From a virus: 64,000 nucleotides of DNA. This document shows, piece by piece, positions 16,733 through 34,730 of this stretch. The position numbers and the translations under genes were made by a program. Under the pieces are notes generated by a model. The model had not been told where the DNA came from. It worked only from the letters and a program-made list of their open reading frames with translations, and did no database searches. Location of the stretch: IMG/VR virus record IMGVR_UViG_3300015265_000205, positions 1-64,000 of that record; one strand, written 5' to 3'. The first letter of the stretch is position 1. Every line of letters begins with the position of its first letter.

Positions 16733-16803
16733 TGGCGCCCCGGCAGGGAATCGAACCCTGCTGATGCCGGCCGCACTGTCCGGCACCCAGTCCACTACGG
16801 GGC
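16733..16803 (-). other. tRNA-like sequence, degenerate or lacking a D-arm
   Basis: On the minus strand, GCCCCG pairs with CGGGGC as an acceptor stem, a standard T-arm follows (CAGGG, TTCGATT, CCCTG), and the 3' end is G then CCA. Between them a GCCGG/CCGGC hairpin sits in the anticodon position, but its loop is nine bases with no normal anticodon context, and the D-region is about 12 bases without a closing stem. It looks like a decayed phage tRNA or a tRNA-mimicking RNA. It lies inside the leftward early transcript. Confidence 0.4.
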
Positions 16804-16946
16804 TTTCAATCCTGCGTACGCCAGGAAGCGCGGCCGGTGCGGGTCGTAACTCCGGCGCTTGATACATCGCGTGCCCGCTGACGCAATTCATAGTGCTGGC
16901 GGCCCTGTCGATCCGTCGGGCGTGTGATTCCTGCGGCTGGTGGGCC

Positions 16947-24770: not shown

Positions 24771-25246
24771 TGGCGAACACTCGAACCGAAGCCGGCCGCT
24801 TCATGGCTGGCAAAAGCTATTCGCCGGCCACGCAGTTCAAGCCTGGCCAACATCCGGCGCCGGCGACAGAAATTCAGCCTGGCCAGCGGCTCTCGCCGGC
24901 CACGGAATTCAAGCCCGGCATGGACGCGCACAACCGGCTACCTGTCGGCGCCGTGCGCGTGCGCCGCGAAACGCATACCGGACTCGATCGCGCCTGGGTA
25001 AAAACGGCCGAGCCGAACGTATGGCGCAAGCGGGCGGTGCTGGTATGGGAGGCGGAGCACGGACCGGTGGCGCGCGGCCTGGTCATTCACCACCGCGACC
25101 GTGACAGCTTGAACGACGCGCCGGCCAATCTCCAGGCGCTGACGCGCAAGGAGCATGCGGACGAGCACCGTTGCGAACTAGAGTCAGCCCGCGCGCGTAA
25201 CGGTGCCAACTTCGCGCATGAGCGCGAGATTGCGAGGGTGGCGTGA
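24767..25246 (+). CDS. HNH endonuclease
   Basis: 159 residues. The C-terminal half has the HNH motif (ARGLVIHHRDRDSLNDAPAN, then LQALTRKEHADEH). The N-terminal 50 residues hold three copies of a PAT(Q/E)(F/I)(K/Q)PGQ-like unit, resembling modules in front of phage HNH homing enzymes. Start by GTG in an overlap with the methyltransferase stop. It could be a homing endonuclease or an accessory nuclease. Confidence 0.75.
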   Translation: MMANTRTEAGRFMAGKSYSPATQFKPGQHPAPATEIQPGQRLSPATEFKPGMDAHNRLPVGAVRVRRETHTGLDRAWVKTAEPNVWRKRAVLVWEAEHGPVARGLVIHHRDRDSLNDAPANLQALTRKEHADEHRCELESARARNGANFAHEREIARVA

Positions 25247-26820: not shown

Positions 26821-27357
26821 ATGCGCCGATCACCACTAAAGCCCGGAGCTGGCTTTAAAAGCCGAGCCTTCGCGCGCGGCGAGCGCATCGAGGCGCGCGA
26901 AGTGTCAAAGCTCAAGCGCGCCTCGCCAATGGCCAGCACCGGCATGCTCTCCGTGCAGTCGCACCAGCGCACGGCGAAGACGCGCAAGGCCGGATTGAAA
27001 TCAAAAGAGCGCGCCGTCACGGCCGCCGAGAAATTGCTGTGGTCCCGCTTGGCCGCGCTGGGCTGCGTCGCCTGCGCGAAGGACGGCAATTTCAATCCTC
27101 ACGTCAGCATTCATCACGTCGACGGCCGGACGAAGCCTGGCTGCCACCAGCTCGTGCTGCCACTTTGCGCCGGTCACCACCAGGACGGTACCGGCCAAGA
27201 CAAGACGATGGTCGCGGTTCATCCATGGAAGGCGCGTTTCGAAGCGCGCTACGGCACGCAGGCCGAACTGATGGATGAGTGCGCGCAACTCTTATTTGAA
27301 AAGCAGGGCGCTGCGGCGTCGCCTGCCACCATTCAACCTACATTGGAACACCCATGA
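26818..27357 (+). CDS. Ref-family RecA-dependent nuclease-like protein
   Basis: 179 residues. A basic, Lys/Arg-rich, disordered N-terminus (~1-70) precedes a compact HNH-like zinc domain: LGCVACAKDG, then IHHVDGRTKPGCHQLVLPLC and AGHHQDG. This is the pattern of phage P1 Ref, which cuts DNA in RecA-coated displacement loops. It is followed by the helicase-methyltransferase gene in a four-base overlap. Confidence 0.75.
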   Translation: MMRRSPLKPGAGFKSRAFARGERIEAREVSKLKRASPMASTGMLSVQSHQRTAKTRKAGLKSKERAVTAAEKLLWSRLAALGCVACAKDGNFNPHVSIHHVDGRTKPGCHQLVLPLCAGHHQDGTGQDKTMVAVHPWKARFEARYGTQAELMDECAQLLFEKQGAAASPATIQPTLEHP

Positions 27358-29981
27358 GCGCATTTAGCCCGCAAGAGCAAAAACACCTGAAAGAAGCCGC
27401 GTACAGTGAATTCCTGCGCGCCAAGATCAAGCTGGCCCAGCGCAAGGGCTTCGACGTGCCGCTGGCCGATATCCACCCTGGCCTCAAGCCACACACCCGC
27501 GACATCGTGCGCTGGGCCTTGGCCGGCGGCCAGCGCGCCATCTTCGCCTCGTTCGGCCTGCACAAGACCAGCACCAACCTAGAGGTGATGCGCCAGATCG
27601 GCATCCACCGGCCAGGCCTGCGCCTGATCGTGCTGCCACTGGGCGTGCGCCAGGAGTTCATCCGCGAGGCCGCGAAGCGCTTCACCGGCGAGTACGAAGT
27701 GCAGGTGCGCTTCATCCGTACGGACGCCGAGATCGACGGCCAGGACGTCGTCTACCTGACGAATTACGAATCGGTGCGCGAGGGCAAGATTGATGTGCGC
27801 AAGTTCCGCGCCGTCGGCCTGGACGAGGCCAGCGTGCTGCGCAGCTACGGCAGCAAGACCTATCAAGAGTTCCTGCCACTGTTCGAGCAGGTCGAGTTCA
27901 AGTTCGTCTACACGGCCACGCCGTCACCTAACCGTTTCAAGGAATTGATCCACTATGCGGGCTTCCTGGGCGTGATGGACACCGGCCAGGCCCTGACGCG
28001 CTTTTTCCAGCGCGACAGCGAGAAGGCCGGCAACCTGACGCTGTACCCGCACAAGGAACAGGAATTCTGGCTGTGGGTGGCCAGCTGGGCGGTTTTCATC
28101 CAGCGCCCGAGCGACCTTGGCCATTCGGACGAAGGCTACGATCTGCCGGCGCTGGATGTGCGCTTTCACGAGGTGCCGAGCAACTACAGCACGGCCGGCG
28201 CCGAAAAGAACGGCCAGGGCCTGCTGATCCCGAACGTGGCCATGGGCCTGTCGGCCGCTGCCGGCGAGAAGCGCGACAGCATGGCCGCGCGCGTCGCCAA
28301 GGTGGCCGAGATCATGGCTGAGGATCCTGATGATCATTTCCTGATCTGGCACGACTTGGAGGACGAGCGGCACGCCATCCAGGCGGCCGTGCCCGGCGTG
28401 GTCAGCGTGTGGGGCACGCAGGACCTGGACCAGCGTGAGCAGCGGATCGCCGATTTCAGCGATGGCAAGATCAAGGATCTGTCGACCAAGCCAATCATCG
28501 CCGGCAGCGGCTGCAACTTCCAGGTGCACTGCCACCGCGAGATTTTCGCGGGTATCGGCTTCAAGTTCAACGATTTCATCCAGGCCGTCCACCGCGTCCA
28601 GCGCTTCCAGCAGCAGCACGCCGTCCGTATCGACATCATCCACACGGAAGTCGAGCGCAAGGTACTGGCCGACCTGATGGAAAAATGGCGCCGCCACGAC
28701 GAAATGCAGGCCAAGATGGGCCAGATCATCCGCGCCTATGGCCTCGACCAGCTGTCCATGCAGGACTCGCTCGCGCGCACCATTGGTGTCGAGCGCGCCG
28801 TCGTAGCCGGCGAGCGGTTCTCGGTGGCTAACAACGACTGCATGCTCGAAGCCATGCAGCAGCCGGACAACTCGGTGGGCATGATCATCACCAGCGTCCC
28901 GTTCGCCAACCATTACGAATACACGCCCAGTTACAACGACTTCGGCCACACCCAGGACAACGACCATTTTTGGGCGCAGATGGACTTCCTGACGCCGGAA
29001 CTGCTGCGTATCCTGCAGCCTGGCCGCATTTACGCTTGCCACGTGAAGGACCGGATCAATTTCGGCAACGTTACCGGCGCCGGCGTGCCGACTGTCAGCC
29101 CGTTCCATGCCGAGGCGCTGTTTCACGGTATTAAGCACGGCTTCGACTACATGGGCATGATCACCGTCGTGACAGATGTGGTGCGCGAAAACAACCAGAC
29201 CTACCGCCTGGGCTATTCCGAAGTGTGCAAGGACGGCACGAAGATGGGCGTCGGCTCGCCGGAATACATCCTGCTGTTCCACAAGCCGCAGACGGACCGC
29301 TCGCGCGGCTACGCCGATGTACCGGTTACGAAGGCAAAGCCGCTGTGCCTGGATGATGCCGGCGACCGGATCCCGTTTGATCGCAAGGCCGCGCCCATTC
29401 CCGGTACCGGCTACAGCGTGGCACGCTGGCAGGTCGACGCGCATGCGTTCTGGCGCTCCAGTGGCGATCGCCTGCTGGGCGCGGCCGAGCTGGCCAGCTT
29501 CGGGCCGGGCAAGCTGGCGAAGCTTTTCACCAGCATGTCGCTGGACAACGTCTACAACTACGAATACCACGTCGAGGTGGGCGAGGCGCTGCTGTCCGGC
29601 AAGGCGCTGCCTGCGGATTACCTCAGCCTGGCGCCGGGCAGCGCTGACCCGGCCGTGTGGCACGACATCGTGCGCATGCGCACTTTGAATGGTGAGCAGT
29701 CGGCGCGCGCGGTCGAAAAGCACGTTTGCCCGTTCCAGATCGATATCGTGGACCGTCTGATCGGCCGTTACAGCAATCCGGGCGAGGTGATCTATGACCC
29801 ATTCTGCGGCCTGGGCACCGTGCCCGTGCGCGCCATGAAGCTGGGCCGTCAGGGACGCGGCAGCGAGCTGAACCCGGCATATTTCGCTGACCAGGTGCAC
29901 TACTGCCAAGCGATGGAGCGCGAAGTCAGCATGCCTACGCTATTCGATATGGAACTGATGGACGAGGAGAATGCGAAGTGA
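27354..29981 (+). CDS. SF2 helicase-like / DNA methyltransferase fusion
   Basis: 875 residues. Residues ~40-450 are a superfamily 2 helicase-like unit with degenerate motifs: GLHKT (68-72) in place of GxGKT, LDEAS (156-160) for DEAH, YTATPSPN (motif III) and QAVHRVQR near 415 (motif VI). Residues ~490-870 are an amino-methyltransferase: TSVPFANHYEYTP near 514 in the place of the catalytic (D/N/S)PP(Y/F), and YDPFCGLGTVP near 813 (AdoMet binding). The order places it among N4-cytosine/N6-adenine enzymes. A helicase unit attached to a methylase suggests translocation along DNA while modifying it, probably for antirestriction. Confidence 0.82.
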   Translation: MSAFSPQEQKHLKEAAYSEFLRAKIKLAQRKGFDVPLADIHPGLKPHTRDIVRWALAGGQRAIFASFGLHKTSTNLEVMRQIGIHRPGLRLIVLPLGVRQEFIREAAKRFTGEYEVQVRFIRTDAEIDGQDVVYLTNYESVREGKIDVRKFRAVGLDEASVLRSYGSKTYQEFLPLFEQVEFKFVYTATPSPNRFKELIHYAGFLGVMDTGQALTRFFQRDSEKAGNLTLYPHKEQEFWLWVASWAVFIQRPSDLGHSDEGYDLPALDVRFHEVPSNYSTAGAEKNGQGLLIPNVAMGLSAAAGEKRDSMAARVAKVAEIMAEDPDDHFLIWHDLEDERHAIQAAVPGVVSVWGTQDLDQREQRIADFSDGKIKDLSTKPIIAGSGCNFQVHCHREIFAGIGFKFNDFIQAVHRVQRFQQQHAVRIDIIHTEVERKVLADLMEKWRRHDEMQAKMGQIIRAYGLDQLSMQDSLARTIGVERAVVAGERFSVANNDCMLEAMQQPDNSVGMIITSVPFANHYEYTPSYNDFGHTQDNDHFWAQMDFLTPELLRILQPGRIYACHVKDRINFGNVTGAGVPTVSPFHAEALFHGIKHGFDYMGMITVVTDVVRENNQTYRLGYSEVCKDGTKMGVGSPEYILLFHKPQTDRSRGYADVPVTKAKPLCLDDAGDRIPFDRKAAPIPGTGYSVARWQVDAHAFWRSSGDRLLGAAELASFGPGKLAKLFTSMSLDNVYNYEYHVEVGEALLSGKALPADYLSLAPGSADPAVWHDIVRMRTLNGEQSARAVEKHVCPFQIDIVDRLIGRYSNPGEVIYDPFCGLGTVPVRAMKLGRQGRGSELNPAYFADQVHYCQAMEREVSMPTLFDMELMDEENAK

Positions 29982-30220: not shown

Positions 30221-30408
30221 TGCCGACACCCCCCGTGAACATGCGCCGCATTGCGGCCTGCACCACCACTCATGTTCTGCGCCTCAGGGACGACACCGAA
30301 CTGTGTGACCGTCACAAGGCCCGTAGCCAGGCGCGAAAGCTCAAACCCGAGGGTGAGCCGCTAGTCGCTGCCTTGTTCGGCGCGGCGCATGCGCAGGAGG
30401 CTCGCTGA
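30217..30408 (+). CDS. Small protein, unknown
   Basis: 63 residues with two Cys in a basic N-terminal half (MRRIAACTTTHV, LCDRHKARSQARK). Its end, EPLVAALFGAAHAQEA, resembles the tail of the winged-helix protein at 22531. ATAGGAGA precedes the start. Confidence 0.5.
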   Translation: MMPTPPVNMRRIAACTTTHVLRLRDDTELCDRHKARSQARKLKPEGEPLVAALFGAAHAQEAR

Positions 30409-31280
30409 TGGGCCGCATTCGCACTGTAAAACCGGAGCTGTTTAAGCATGAAGACCTGTTTGACCTTGAGCAGCAGTCCGGGCTTCCAATCCGCACCGCA
30501 TTCATGGGCCTTTTCACCTGCTGCGACAAGGAAGGGCGCTTTAAATGGCGCCCGCGCGCGCTCAAGCTCGATATTCTTCCATACGACGAAATTGATTTTT
30601 CACGCGTGCTTGACGCGTTGATGACGCGTGGATTTGTAGTGAAATATGAGGTCGAAGGCGAGTTTTTCGGCTTCATTCCGACGTTTTCCAAGCACCAAGT
30701 CATAAATAATCGTGAATCTGACTCGGAATTGCCAGCGCCGGACGAATGCTTATGTATATCAATGACTTCGACGCGTGCGGCACGCGTGGATGACGCGACA
30801 GTCACGCCCCTTAAGCATGCTCAAGTGGAAGGGAAGGGAAAGGAAGGGAAAGGAAGGGAAGGGGAACAGGAAGGGAAGGAGACTCTTGTCGAGCAAACCC
30901 AGCTCGACCCCGTGACGACGATCTTCGCGTTCTGGCAAAAAGTCATGGACTCGCCCAAGTCAGTTCTGGACGACAAGCGCAAGCGGCTGATCGTCAAGGC
31001 GCTGAGGGGTTACTCGCCGGCCGACATCTGCAAAGCCATCCGTGGCTGCTCGAAGACGCCTCACAACATGGGCCAGAACGATGCGAGAACGAAGTACAAC
31101 GGCCTGGGCCTGATCCTGCGCGATGCCGACCACATCGACCGCTTCATCCGCAACGATGCTGGCCAGGCCCGCGCCAACGCAGGCAACGAGACTATCGAGC
31201 AGACGAATGAGCGGGTCATGCGCGAGTTGATGGGCGCCTCCGCGCCAGCTGGCGACATCATCGACATGGTGCCGGCATGA
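30408..31280 (+). CDS. Phage replication initiator (O-like)
   Basis: 290 residues. The N-terminal ~105 residues (MGRIRTVKPELFKHEDLFDL, then RTAFMGLFTCCDKEGRFKWR and LDALMTRGFVVKYE) form the winged helix of phage replisome-organiser proteins. A Gly/Lys/Glu linker at ~138-158 is encoded by a purine tract. The C-terminal ~120 residues (KRKRLIVKALRGYSPADICK onward) are helical and probably contact the helicase or its loader. Direct repeats inside the gene suggest that it binds its own coding sequence as the origin, as lambda O does. Confidence 0.8.
   Translation: MGRIRTVKPELFKHEDLFDLEQQSGLPIRTAFMGLFTCCDKEGRFKWRPRALKLDILPYDEIDFSRVLDALMTRGFVVKYEVEGEFFGFIPTFSKHQVINNRESDSELPAPDECLCISMTSTRAARVDDATVTPLKHAQVEGKGKEGKGREGEQEGKETLVEQTQLDPVTTIFAFWQKVMDSPKSVLDDKRKRLIVKALRGYSPADICKAIRGCSKTPHNMGQNDARTKYNGLGLILRDADHIDRFIRNDAGQARANAGNETIEQTNERVMRELMGASAPAGDIIDMVPA
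30602..30882. other. Candidate replication origin: phased iterons and purine tract
   Basis: Two groups of three direct repeats of ACGCGT, each exactly 11 bp apart: 30602, 30613, 30624 and 30771, 30782, 30793 (the last reads ACGCGA). The unit is about ACGCGTGNNTG. Eleven is not a multiple of three, so the repeats come from DNA-level constraint, not repeated protein. A 56-base purine tract with one C (30827-30882) follows. This is the lambda ori plan: iterons inside the O gene beside an easily opened or unusual segment. Confidence 0.65.
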
Positions 31281-32092
31281 ACGCCGTCGACACACCGCGC
31301 TTCATGCAGCTGCTGGCCGAGACCTTGGCTGCCTACGGCAAGCCGTTGCCCGAGGCCGCGATGGCGCGCGCCTGGCTGGCCAATCTTGAACCGTACCCGC
31401 TGCCCACGGTGGCAGCCGCCTTGCAGGCCTATCGCGACGAGAACGGCGAATTTGCGCCGGTGCCGGCCGGCATCGCCAAGCGTTGCAAGCTCATGGACGG
31501 CCGCCCGGGCGCGGAGGAGGCATGGGCTATCGCGCTGACCAGCCAGGACGAAATGGCCAGCGTGGTTTGGACGACCGAGATTGCTGAGGCCTTCCGCATC
31601 TGCCGGTCAGTGCTCGACTCCAGCGGCGCCATCAGCGCCCGCAAGCCGTTCCTGGAGGCCTACGAGCGCATCGTTGCCGCAGCGCGCGCTGCGCGGCACC
31701 CGGCCGAGTGGGTGGCGTCCGTGGGCTGGGACAAGACCCGCCACGTCGAGGTGCTGGGTAATGCGGTGAGGGCAGGGCTCCTTCCGGCGCCGGCCGTGGC
31801 AGGCCTGCTGCAGGGCAAGCAGGACCAGACGCCGGACGACGCCGCGCGCGCCCAGCTTGCCGCCATCAAAAAAATGATTTCCGACGGCGCTGCCGCGAAG
31901 GAAGCGGCGCGCTTGGAGCGCGTCGAGCAGCAGCGCCTGGCGGACGAAGAATTCAAACGGTCGACCGCTAAGCGCGTGCAGCTTTACCTAGCTGACGGCA
32001 GAAATGCACCTGGCCCGGCAAGCGCGAATGCTGCTCAGGATTTGCCAGAGGCACCGCCGCACTGCGCAAGGGCCATGACCGCTACGAAGTGA
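31277..32092 (+). CDS. Replication-associated protein, candidate helicase loader (P-like)
   Basis: 271 residues, overlapping the O-like gene as ATGA. The N-terminus (FMQLLAETLAAYGKPLPEAA, LEPYPLPTVAAALQAYRDEN and PVPAGIAKRC) resembles phage proteins next to replication initiators that match helicase loaders. The C-terminal third is a charged helix (AKEAARLERVEQQRLADEEF). No ATPase motif. The loader role is inferred from position. Confidence 0.55.
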   Translation: MNAVDTPRFMQLLAETLAAYGKPLPEAAMARAWLANLEPYPLPTVAAALQAYRDENGEFAPVPAGIAKRCKLMDGRPGAEEAWAIALTSQDEMASVVWTTEIAEAFRICRSVLDSSGAISARKPFLEAYERIVAAARAARHPAEWVASVGWDKTRHVEVLGNAVRAGLLPAPAVAGLLQGKQDQTPDDAARAQLAAIKKMISDGAAAKEAARLERVEQQRLADEEFKRSTAKRVQLYLADGRNAPGPASANAAQDLPEAPPHCARAMTATK

Positions 32093-34656: not shown

Positions 34657-34730
34657 GCGGGTGTAGCTCAATGGCAGAGCGGAAGCCTTCCAAGCTTTCC
34701 ACGCGGGTTCGATTCCCGCCGCCCGCTCCA
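34657..34730 (+). tRNA. tRNA-Gly (anticodon TCC)
   Basis: 74 bases including the encoded CCA. Acceptor GCGGGTG/CGCCCGC (one G-T pair), D-arm GCTC...GAGC, anticodon stem GAAGC/GCTTT with loop CTTCCAA, four-base variable loop, T-arm GCGGG-TTCGATT-CCCGC. All conserved positions are present, so it should function. It lies in the late transcript, between the leader terminator and the packaging genes, and would supply GGA/GGG decoding during virion synthesis. Confidence 0.95.

Follow-up and report, generated by a model that had tools for sequence, protein, structure and literature searches.

Among the closest known systems is phage lambda with its O protein, together with the O proteins of Stx phages. 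In lambda, the replication origin is located midway through the initiator gene, with repeats at gene offset 348-433. The lambda iterons are inverted repeats of 18-19 bp that bind O dimers, and the opening region is strand-asymmetric in purines; the iteron plasmids P1, F, RK2 and R6K carry helix-phased direct repeats beside the opening region (PMC5043065). The window analysed here is a stretch of 64,000 nucleotides that makes up nearly the whole of a virus record of 67,221 bases, and its initiator gene (30408-31280, + strand) also carries directly repeated, helically phased sites, as iteron-type origins do and as found in these four plasmids. Plasmid iterons lie as a rule outside the rep gene, and the Rep proteins of those plasmids belong to other families. 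In RepA_N plasmids the N-domain is a winged helix and the binding sites are found within rep itself. In SaPI origins two sets of short repeats flank an AT-rich stretch, and the SaPI Rep is a helicase that belongs to a different family. In structural comparison with the model of the window protein, Rep-DNA entries scored no better than unrelated winged-helix proteins, both at Z of about 6. Among open-licence papers we found nothing relevant on ACGCGT iterons or on an origin inside the gene in this initiator family and no reports on its binding, opening or replication; individual members may have been described elsewhere.

The 290-aa product of the gene was matched by the profile of phrog_16167, a replication initiation protein (E 2.8e-73, aa 1-257), and had no match in Pfam or NCBIfam. 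Lambda O, by comparison, matches PF04492 (Phage_rep_O) at 5.7e-36, and hhalign of the two proteins gave E of 0.3-0.5, which is no homology; sequence searches against lambda O, lambda P and solved proteins also gave none. An AlphaFold2 model, for which an 86-row alignment of the loci was the input, had pLDDT mostly above 90 across aa 11-110 and predicted a winged-helix N-terminal domain (aa 1-118), a disordered linker (aa 119-167) and a helical C-terminal domain (aa 168-276). Foldseek of this model against the PDB returned nothing below 0.001, and the VIA-align rows at Z 6-7 reflected only the common winged-helix arrangement; the RepA_N entries 4pql, 4pt7 and 5kbj scored Z 6.0-6.5, on a par with Fur and others. 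Among cellular sequences, Janthinobacterium genomes hold the nearest relatives of the gene, which are 95-100% identical across the N-domain. The C-domain varies by swapping between relatives and may be of DnaT, HNH or Phg_2220_C type. In nine loci (L001-L009), the C-terminal halves were 85-98% alike across phages despite unrelated N-domains, a pattern that in our reading of the sequences points to swapping of domains at the linker.

An earlier note on this DNA had described six ACGCGT-type repeats in two groups of three, with 11-bp steps and the groups set 169 bp apart, and every coordinate was confirmed. Cluster 1 consists of ACGCGT at 30602-30607, 30613-30618 and 30624-30629 on the + strand (in-gene offsets 194, 205 and 216, the same in relatives). 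Cluster 2, on the same strand, consists of ACGCGT at 30771-30776 and 30782-30787 and of ACGCGA at 30793-30798, where many relatives have an exact ACGCGT. One more in-register site, absent from the earlier list, is ACGCCC at 30804-30809 (+), probably a degenerate iteron, and many relatives have ACGCC at the matching step. ACGCGT occurs only 11 times in the 64 kb, against 25.6 expected from shuffles, and five of the 11 are inside the initiator gene. The three 11-bp steps observed in this gene were never reached in 20,000 synonymous-codon shuffles, in which protein and codon usage within the gene were preserved (mean 0.02, maximum 2).

Relatives were retrieved with protein patterns that lie outside the iteron codons, so the motif was not what selected them. 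In 106 distinct relatives we counted 225 exact 11-bp steps against 1.9 expected from synonymous shuffling, counts that are not independent because the loci share kinship. Many of the N-domains are only 40-70% identical, and the sources include Acidobacteria, Rhizobiales, Beta- and Gammaproteobacteria and viral contigs, a spread over several phyla that the earlier note had missed. That note had offered to give up its reading if relatives with the same initiator lacked the repeats; in relatives with the same N-domain the array survives, and a few N-domain relatives (e.g. L103, L114 and L133) have no clear array. Among 63 relatives, cluster 1 was found at gene offsets 194, 205 and 216, often with a further site at 238 after one skipped step; cluster 2 lay at about 346-430, and both clusters are present in about 60 relatives from unrelated bacteria. 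The core extends to a dyad-symmetric YS-ACGCGT-SR consensus around the palindromic 6 bp. ACGCGT sites with an 11-bp neighbour numbered 367 inside the initiator gene (94 kb) and 3 outside it (587 kb). These three sit together at L112:3400-3427, just downstream of an initiator gene. A fixed helical phase between the two clusters was rejected, as their distances ranged from 157 to 226 bp with no single residue modulo 11.

The position of cluster 1 in the protein-coding sequence was missed in the earlier note. It overlaps the codons of helix H3 (aa 64-73; 30597-30626, + strand), delimited by the secondary structure of the model and by the codon table of the relatives, and from its position in the fold H3 is the predicted recognition helix. 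Cluster 2 and the purine tract described below fall in linker codons. Relatives conserve the amino acids encoded at cluster 1 (FSRVLDALxTRG), which is what one would expect if the repeats were just a by-product of the protein or of codon usage. However, the codon choices there are extreme when compared with the rest of the same genes: S65 is TCA in 54/54 relatives (18% elsewhere), A70 is GCG in 61/61 (26%), L71 is TTG or TTA in 58/58 (26%), T73 is ACG in 52/53 (28%) and R74 is CGT in 54/56 (13%). The sites of the second cluster were distributed over the reading frames as 81, 77 and 70, and since they occupy all three frames, selection acts on the DNA. Together with the synonymous shuffles, which yield almost no 11-bp steps, these data refute the by-product explanation, which we regard as having practically no chance of being right, and they uphold the earlier claim that the 11-bp pattern is imposed on the DNA and not by the codons.

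The iteron word also follows the N-domain. No ACGCGT arrays were found in relatives that share only the C-domain, and on the N-domain tree the iteron classes grouped with 16 changes against 37 in shuffles. Within the same N-domain family, L080 has the word GCACATGC at 10 bp, L119 has ACGCGT at 10 bp, and L102-L111 have GGGAAGCAA at 11 bp. The first iteron of L080 is ACACGT and is paired with a His that replaces Arg66 of the predicted recognition helix; the two changes co-occur because one codon carries both. Another factor (a host factor, a centromere-binding protein or a phage methyltransferase) might bind the sites, with the gene as a mere carrier, and a palindromic ACGCGT would suit a modification site; a helicase-methyltransferase gene lies upstream at 27354-29981. 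But the arrays span host phyla, it is the N-domain that they track and not the host or the remaining genes, and when the N-domain changes the word changes while the step stays, so we consider this explanation very improbable. The upstream gene itself, a short way before the initiator gene, matches the helicase profile phrog_16 along most of its product and has an N6/N4 DNA methylase domain at the C-terminus (PF01555, E 3.9e-11).

Downstream of cluster 2 is a purine tract of 56 nt on the coding (+) strand, of (GGGAA)n type with a single C at 30867 (30827-30882). As the earlier note had it, this tract encodes a Gly/Lys/Glu linker, and it falls within the predicted disordered aa 119-167. A coding-strand purine run of at least 14 was present in 100/106 relatives, and a pyrimidine run in 1. 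When the linker boundaries were taken from the protein, 98% of the Gly codons in the linkers of relatives were GGR (42% elsewhere) and 87% of the Arg codons were AGR (18% elsewhere), so the purine strand bias is a property of the DNA. Slippage of the short repeats may help to maintain this bias. The idea of a triplex-forming tract was not supported: in 100 relatives mirror symmetry was no better than in shuffles (mirror arms of 7.9 against 8.2 in unit shuffles), and a G-quadruplex motif, rejected as a conserved property, was found in just 46/100. With neither mirror symmetry nor G4 motifs conserved, triplex or H-DNA formation is unsupported. A dyad located after the last iteron and before the tract (e.g. 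CTTAAGCATGCTCAAG, 30810-30825) was also rejected as a conserved element, with p ≤0.05 in only 4/47 relatives. Since the tract has about 55% GC, it is no ordinary AT-rich unwinding element. By nearest-neighbour stability, the least stable 60 bp of the gene lie between the clusters at 30671-30730, at the 98th percentile of instability in the window, and form a candidate opening region; the inter-cluster stretch had lower GC than the upstream part in 59/63 relatives.

The arrangement resembles lambda ori in several respects. Cluster 2 occupies gene offset 363-401, comparable to the lambda repeats; in the lambda sequence that we fetched, the purine-rich strand is the O coding strand and lies just downstream of the repeats; and the next gene, which encodes the replication partner in lambda and a candidate partner in the window, has an identical ATGA overlap. 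The window has the lambda-type order, in which repeats within the initiator gene precede a strand-asymmetric tract, with the initiator as the putative binder. The differences are also clear, as lambda has iterons of 18-19 bp at steps of 20-24 bp, whereas the window has 6-bp cores at 11-bp steps in two clusters, and cluster 1 is inside the codons of the predicted recognition helix, unlike lambda. Lambda has an A+T-rich opening region adjoining the iterons, but the AT-richer stretch of the window is between the clusters. The earlier description of a lambda ori in outline with a different iteron therefore stands for the in-gene position, the order and the purine strand, and is unsupported for the possible triplex.

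A second initiator family, here called family B, has the same layout with a differing iteron, which the earlier note had also missed. It was met among relatives that have only the C-domain in common and carry a different N-domain (MRDYSKVSPKFWIG; phrog_25210/12196/1701), and the O-like gene of the E. coli K-12 phage PhiR5_2 is of this version. Among 64 distinct family B relatives, lag-11 recurrences of 6-mers numbered 508 against 39 in synonymous shuffles, and were spread over 62 loci. Cluster 1 of family B, at offset 176-214, reads GGGCTTCGAAG (111 forward and 2 reverse), and cluster 2, at about 436-480, reads its reverse complement (9 forward and 55 reverse), so the two clusters are mutually inverted, the first in H3 codons and the second in the linker. 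The elements of the family B model (H9-13, H15-23, H25-36, E45-47, H50-57, H60-73, E77-80 and E85-88) are in the same register, which again puts cluster 1 within the predicted H3 codons. Profile comparison detected no sequence homology between the family B and window-type N-domains, yet the models predict the same fold. Family B (e.g. PhiR5_2) is like the window gene in its two 11-bp-stepped clusters, in H3 codons and linker, and in predicted fold, but differs in its GGGCTTCGAAG iteron, in its inverted clusters, in its (CAGGAA)n linker tract and in an N-domain without detectable homology.

Other N-domains were seen as well. A third, DUF1376-type N-domain family (L227-L242) had a weaker excess of lag-11 6-mers, 31 against 5, and a further excess at lag 21, 76 against 20. 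Five loci (L022, L025, L028, L029 and L031) share only the C-domain and have a different N-domain, MATDARLAVGLATHPKTKKLVRRLGG; their linkers contain long in-frame arrays of CCGTCT or CCATCT hexamers, with a coding strand that is pyrimidine-rich and not purine-rich.

The gene context was also examined. The next gene of the window (31277-32092, + strand; phrog_6028, function unassigned) has an ATGA overlap with the initiator gene and is a candidate helicase-loading partner; a sequence search for lambda P homology gave no match. In six relatives (L064, L077, L084, L090, L134 and L149) the next gene is DnaB, and in others it is IstB/DnaC-like (L125), a primase-helicase (L062) or DUF6475/phrog_10105. 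The initiator gene with its array is also carried by circular complete plasmids with phage genes from Endozoicomonas (54 kb) and Bradyrhizobium (47 kb), and in one phage-plasmid the initiator gene contains every one of the 5 ACGCGT in a 34-kb stretch. No other annotated initiator was found in the phage-plasmid stretches, whose annotation tables are incomplete, and the many unannotated genes may include another initiator. The cumulative GC skew of the window has its minimum at 29.1 kb, or at 31.4 kb without the tract, a shallow minimum that gives weak support. Near the initiator gene we found no DnaA boxes, whose window total was near expectation, and no sigma-70 promoter. Elsewhere in the window, a 36-nt unit is repeated in tandem in 2.7 copies at 24822-24919, and ARAGORN found a tRNA-Gly(tcc) on the + strand (34657-34730) and a tRNA-His on the - strand (16737-16826), of which the tRNA-Gly could mark an attachment site.

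The sites could instead be an operator array, at which the protein autoregulates by binding its own gene and blocks or slows transcription of the replication operon, with replication starting elsewhere. Binding sites within an operon can act as roadblocks, and the N-domain fold is a general winged helix found in many regulators. However, the sites lie 190-400 bp into the gene and not at a promoter, they form two clusters, and the downstream purine tract is conserved together with them; moreover, no comparable ACGCGT array was found elsewhere in the 64-kb window or in two phage-plasmid stretches. We therefore judge a purely regulatory role to be improbable, while operator and origin roles together are possible.

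At the level of sequence, comparison of the relatives shows that selection on the DNA maintains the two phased clusters, the AT-richer stretch and the purine tract, and that all of these are inherited with the N-terminal domain. We conclude that the gene very probably contains a replication origin for its own initiator, lambda-like but built differently. This reading rests on the conservation of the step, the selection on DNA, the location in the gene and the linkage of iteron and N-domain, and also on the helicase gene context, the phage-plasmids, the GC-skew minimum and the likeness to lambda ori. In such an origin the winged-helix N-domain would bind each 6-bp core, so that the bound units would stack along one face of the DNA and build a nucleoprotein complex across both clusters. 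Strain from this complex, with supercoiling or transcription along the gene, might then open the AT-richer stretch or the purine tract, one strand of the opened tract would be held, and the swappable C-terminal domain would recruit the DnaB helicase, directly or via the partner encoded by the neighbouring gene.

A broader proposal, which we make tentatively and consider slightly less probable than its contrary, is a widespread and undescribed class of phage origins in at least two initiator families, with two phased clusters in the initiator's own gene, one of them in the codons of the predicted recognition helix, and a purine tract that opens without being AT-rich. Most phage initiators are annotated just as hypothetical or replication protein, and the origin is not known. 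The layout gives a rule, namely two 11-bp-stepped clusters, one about 60-72 codons into the gene and one in the linker, with a purine-biased tract downstream of them, and this rule would locate origins from sequence alone in many temperate phages and phage-plasmids. The relatives also offer a ready-made series of paired changes in iteron and predicted recognition helix, which would make a code between the two testable. The gene would also be a case of DNA function dictating the amino acids of the very protein that reads that DNA, and if the origin-class reading is true, a single base change can alter a binding site and the residue that reads it together.
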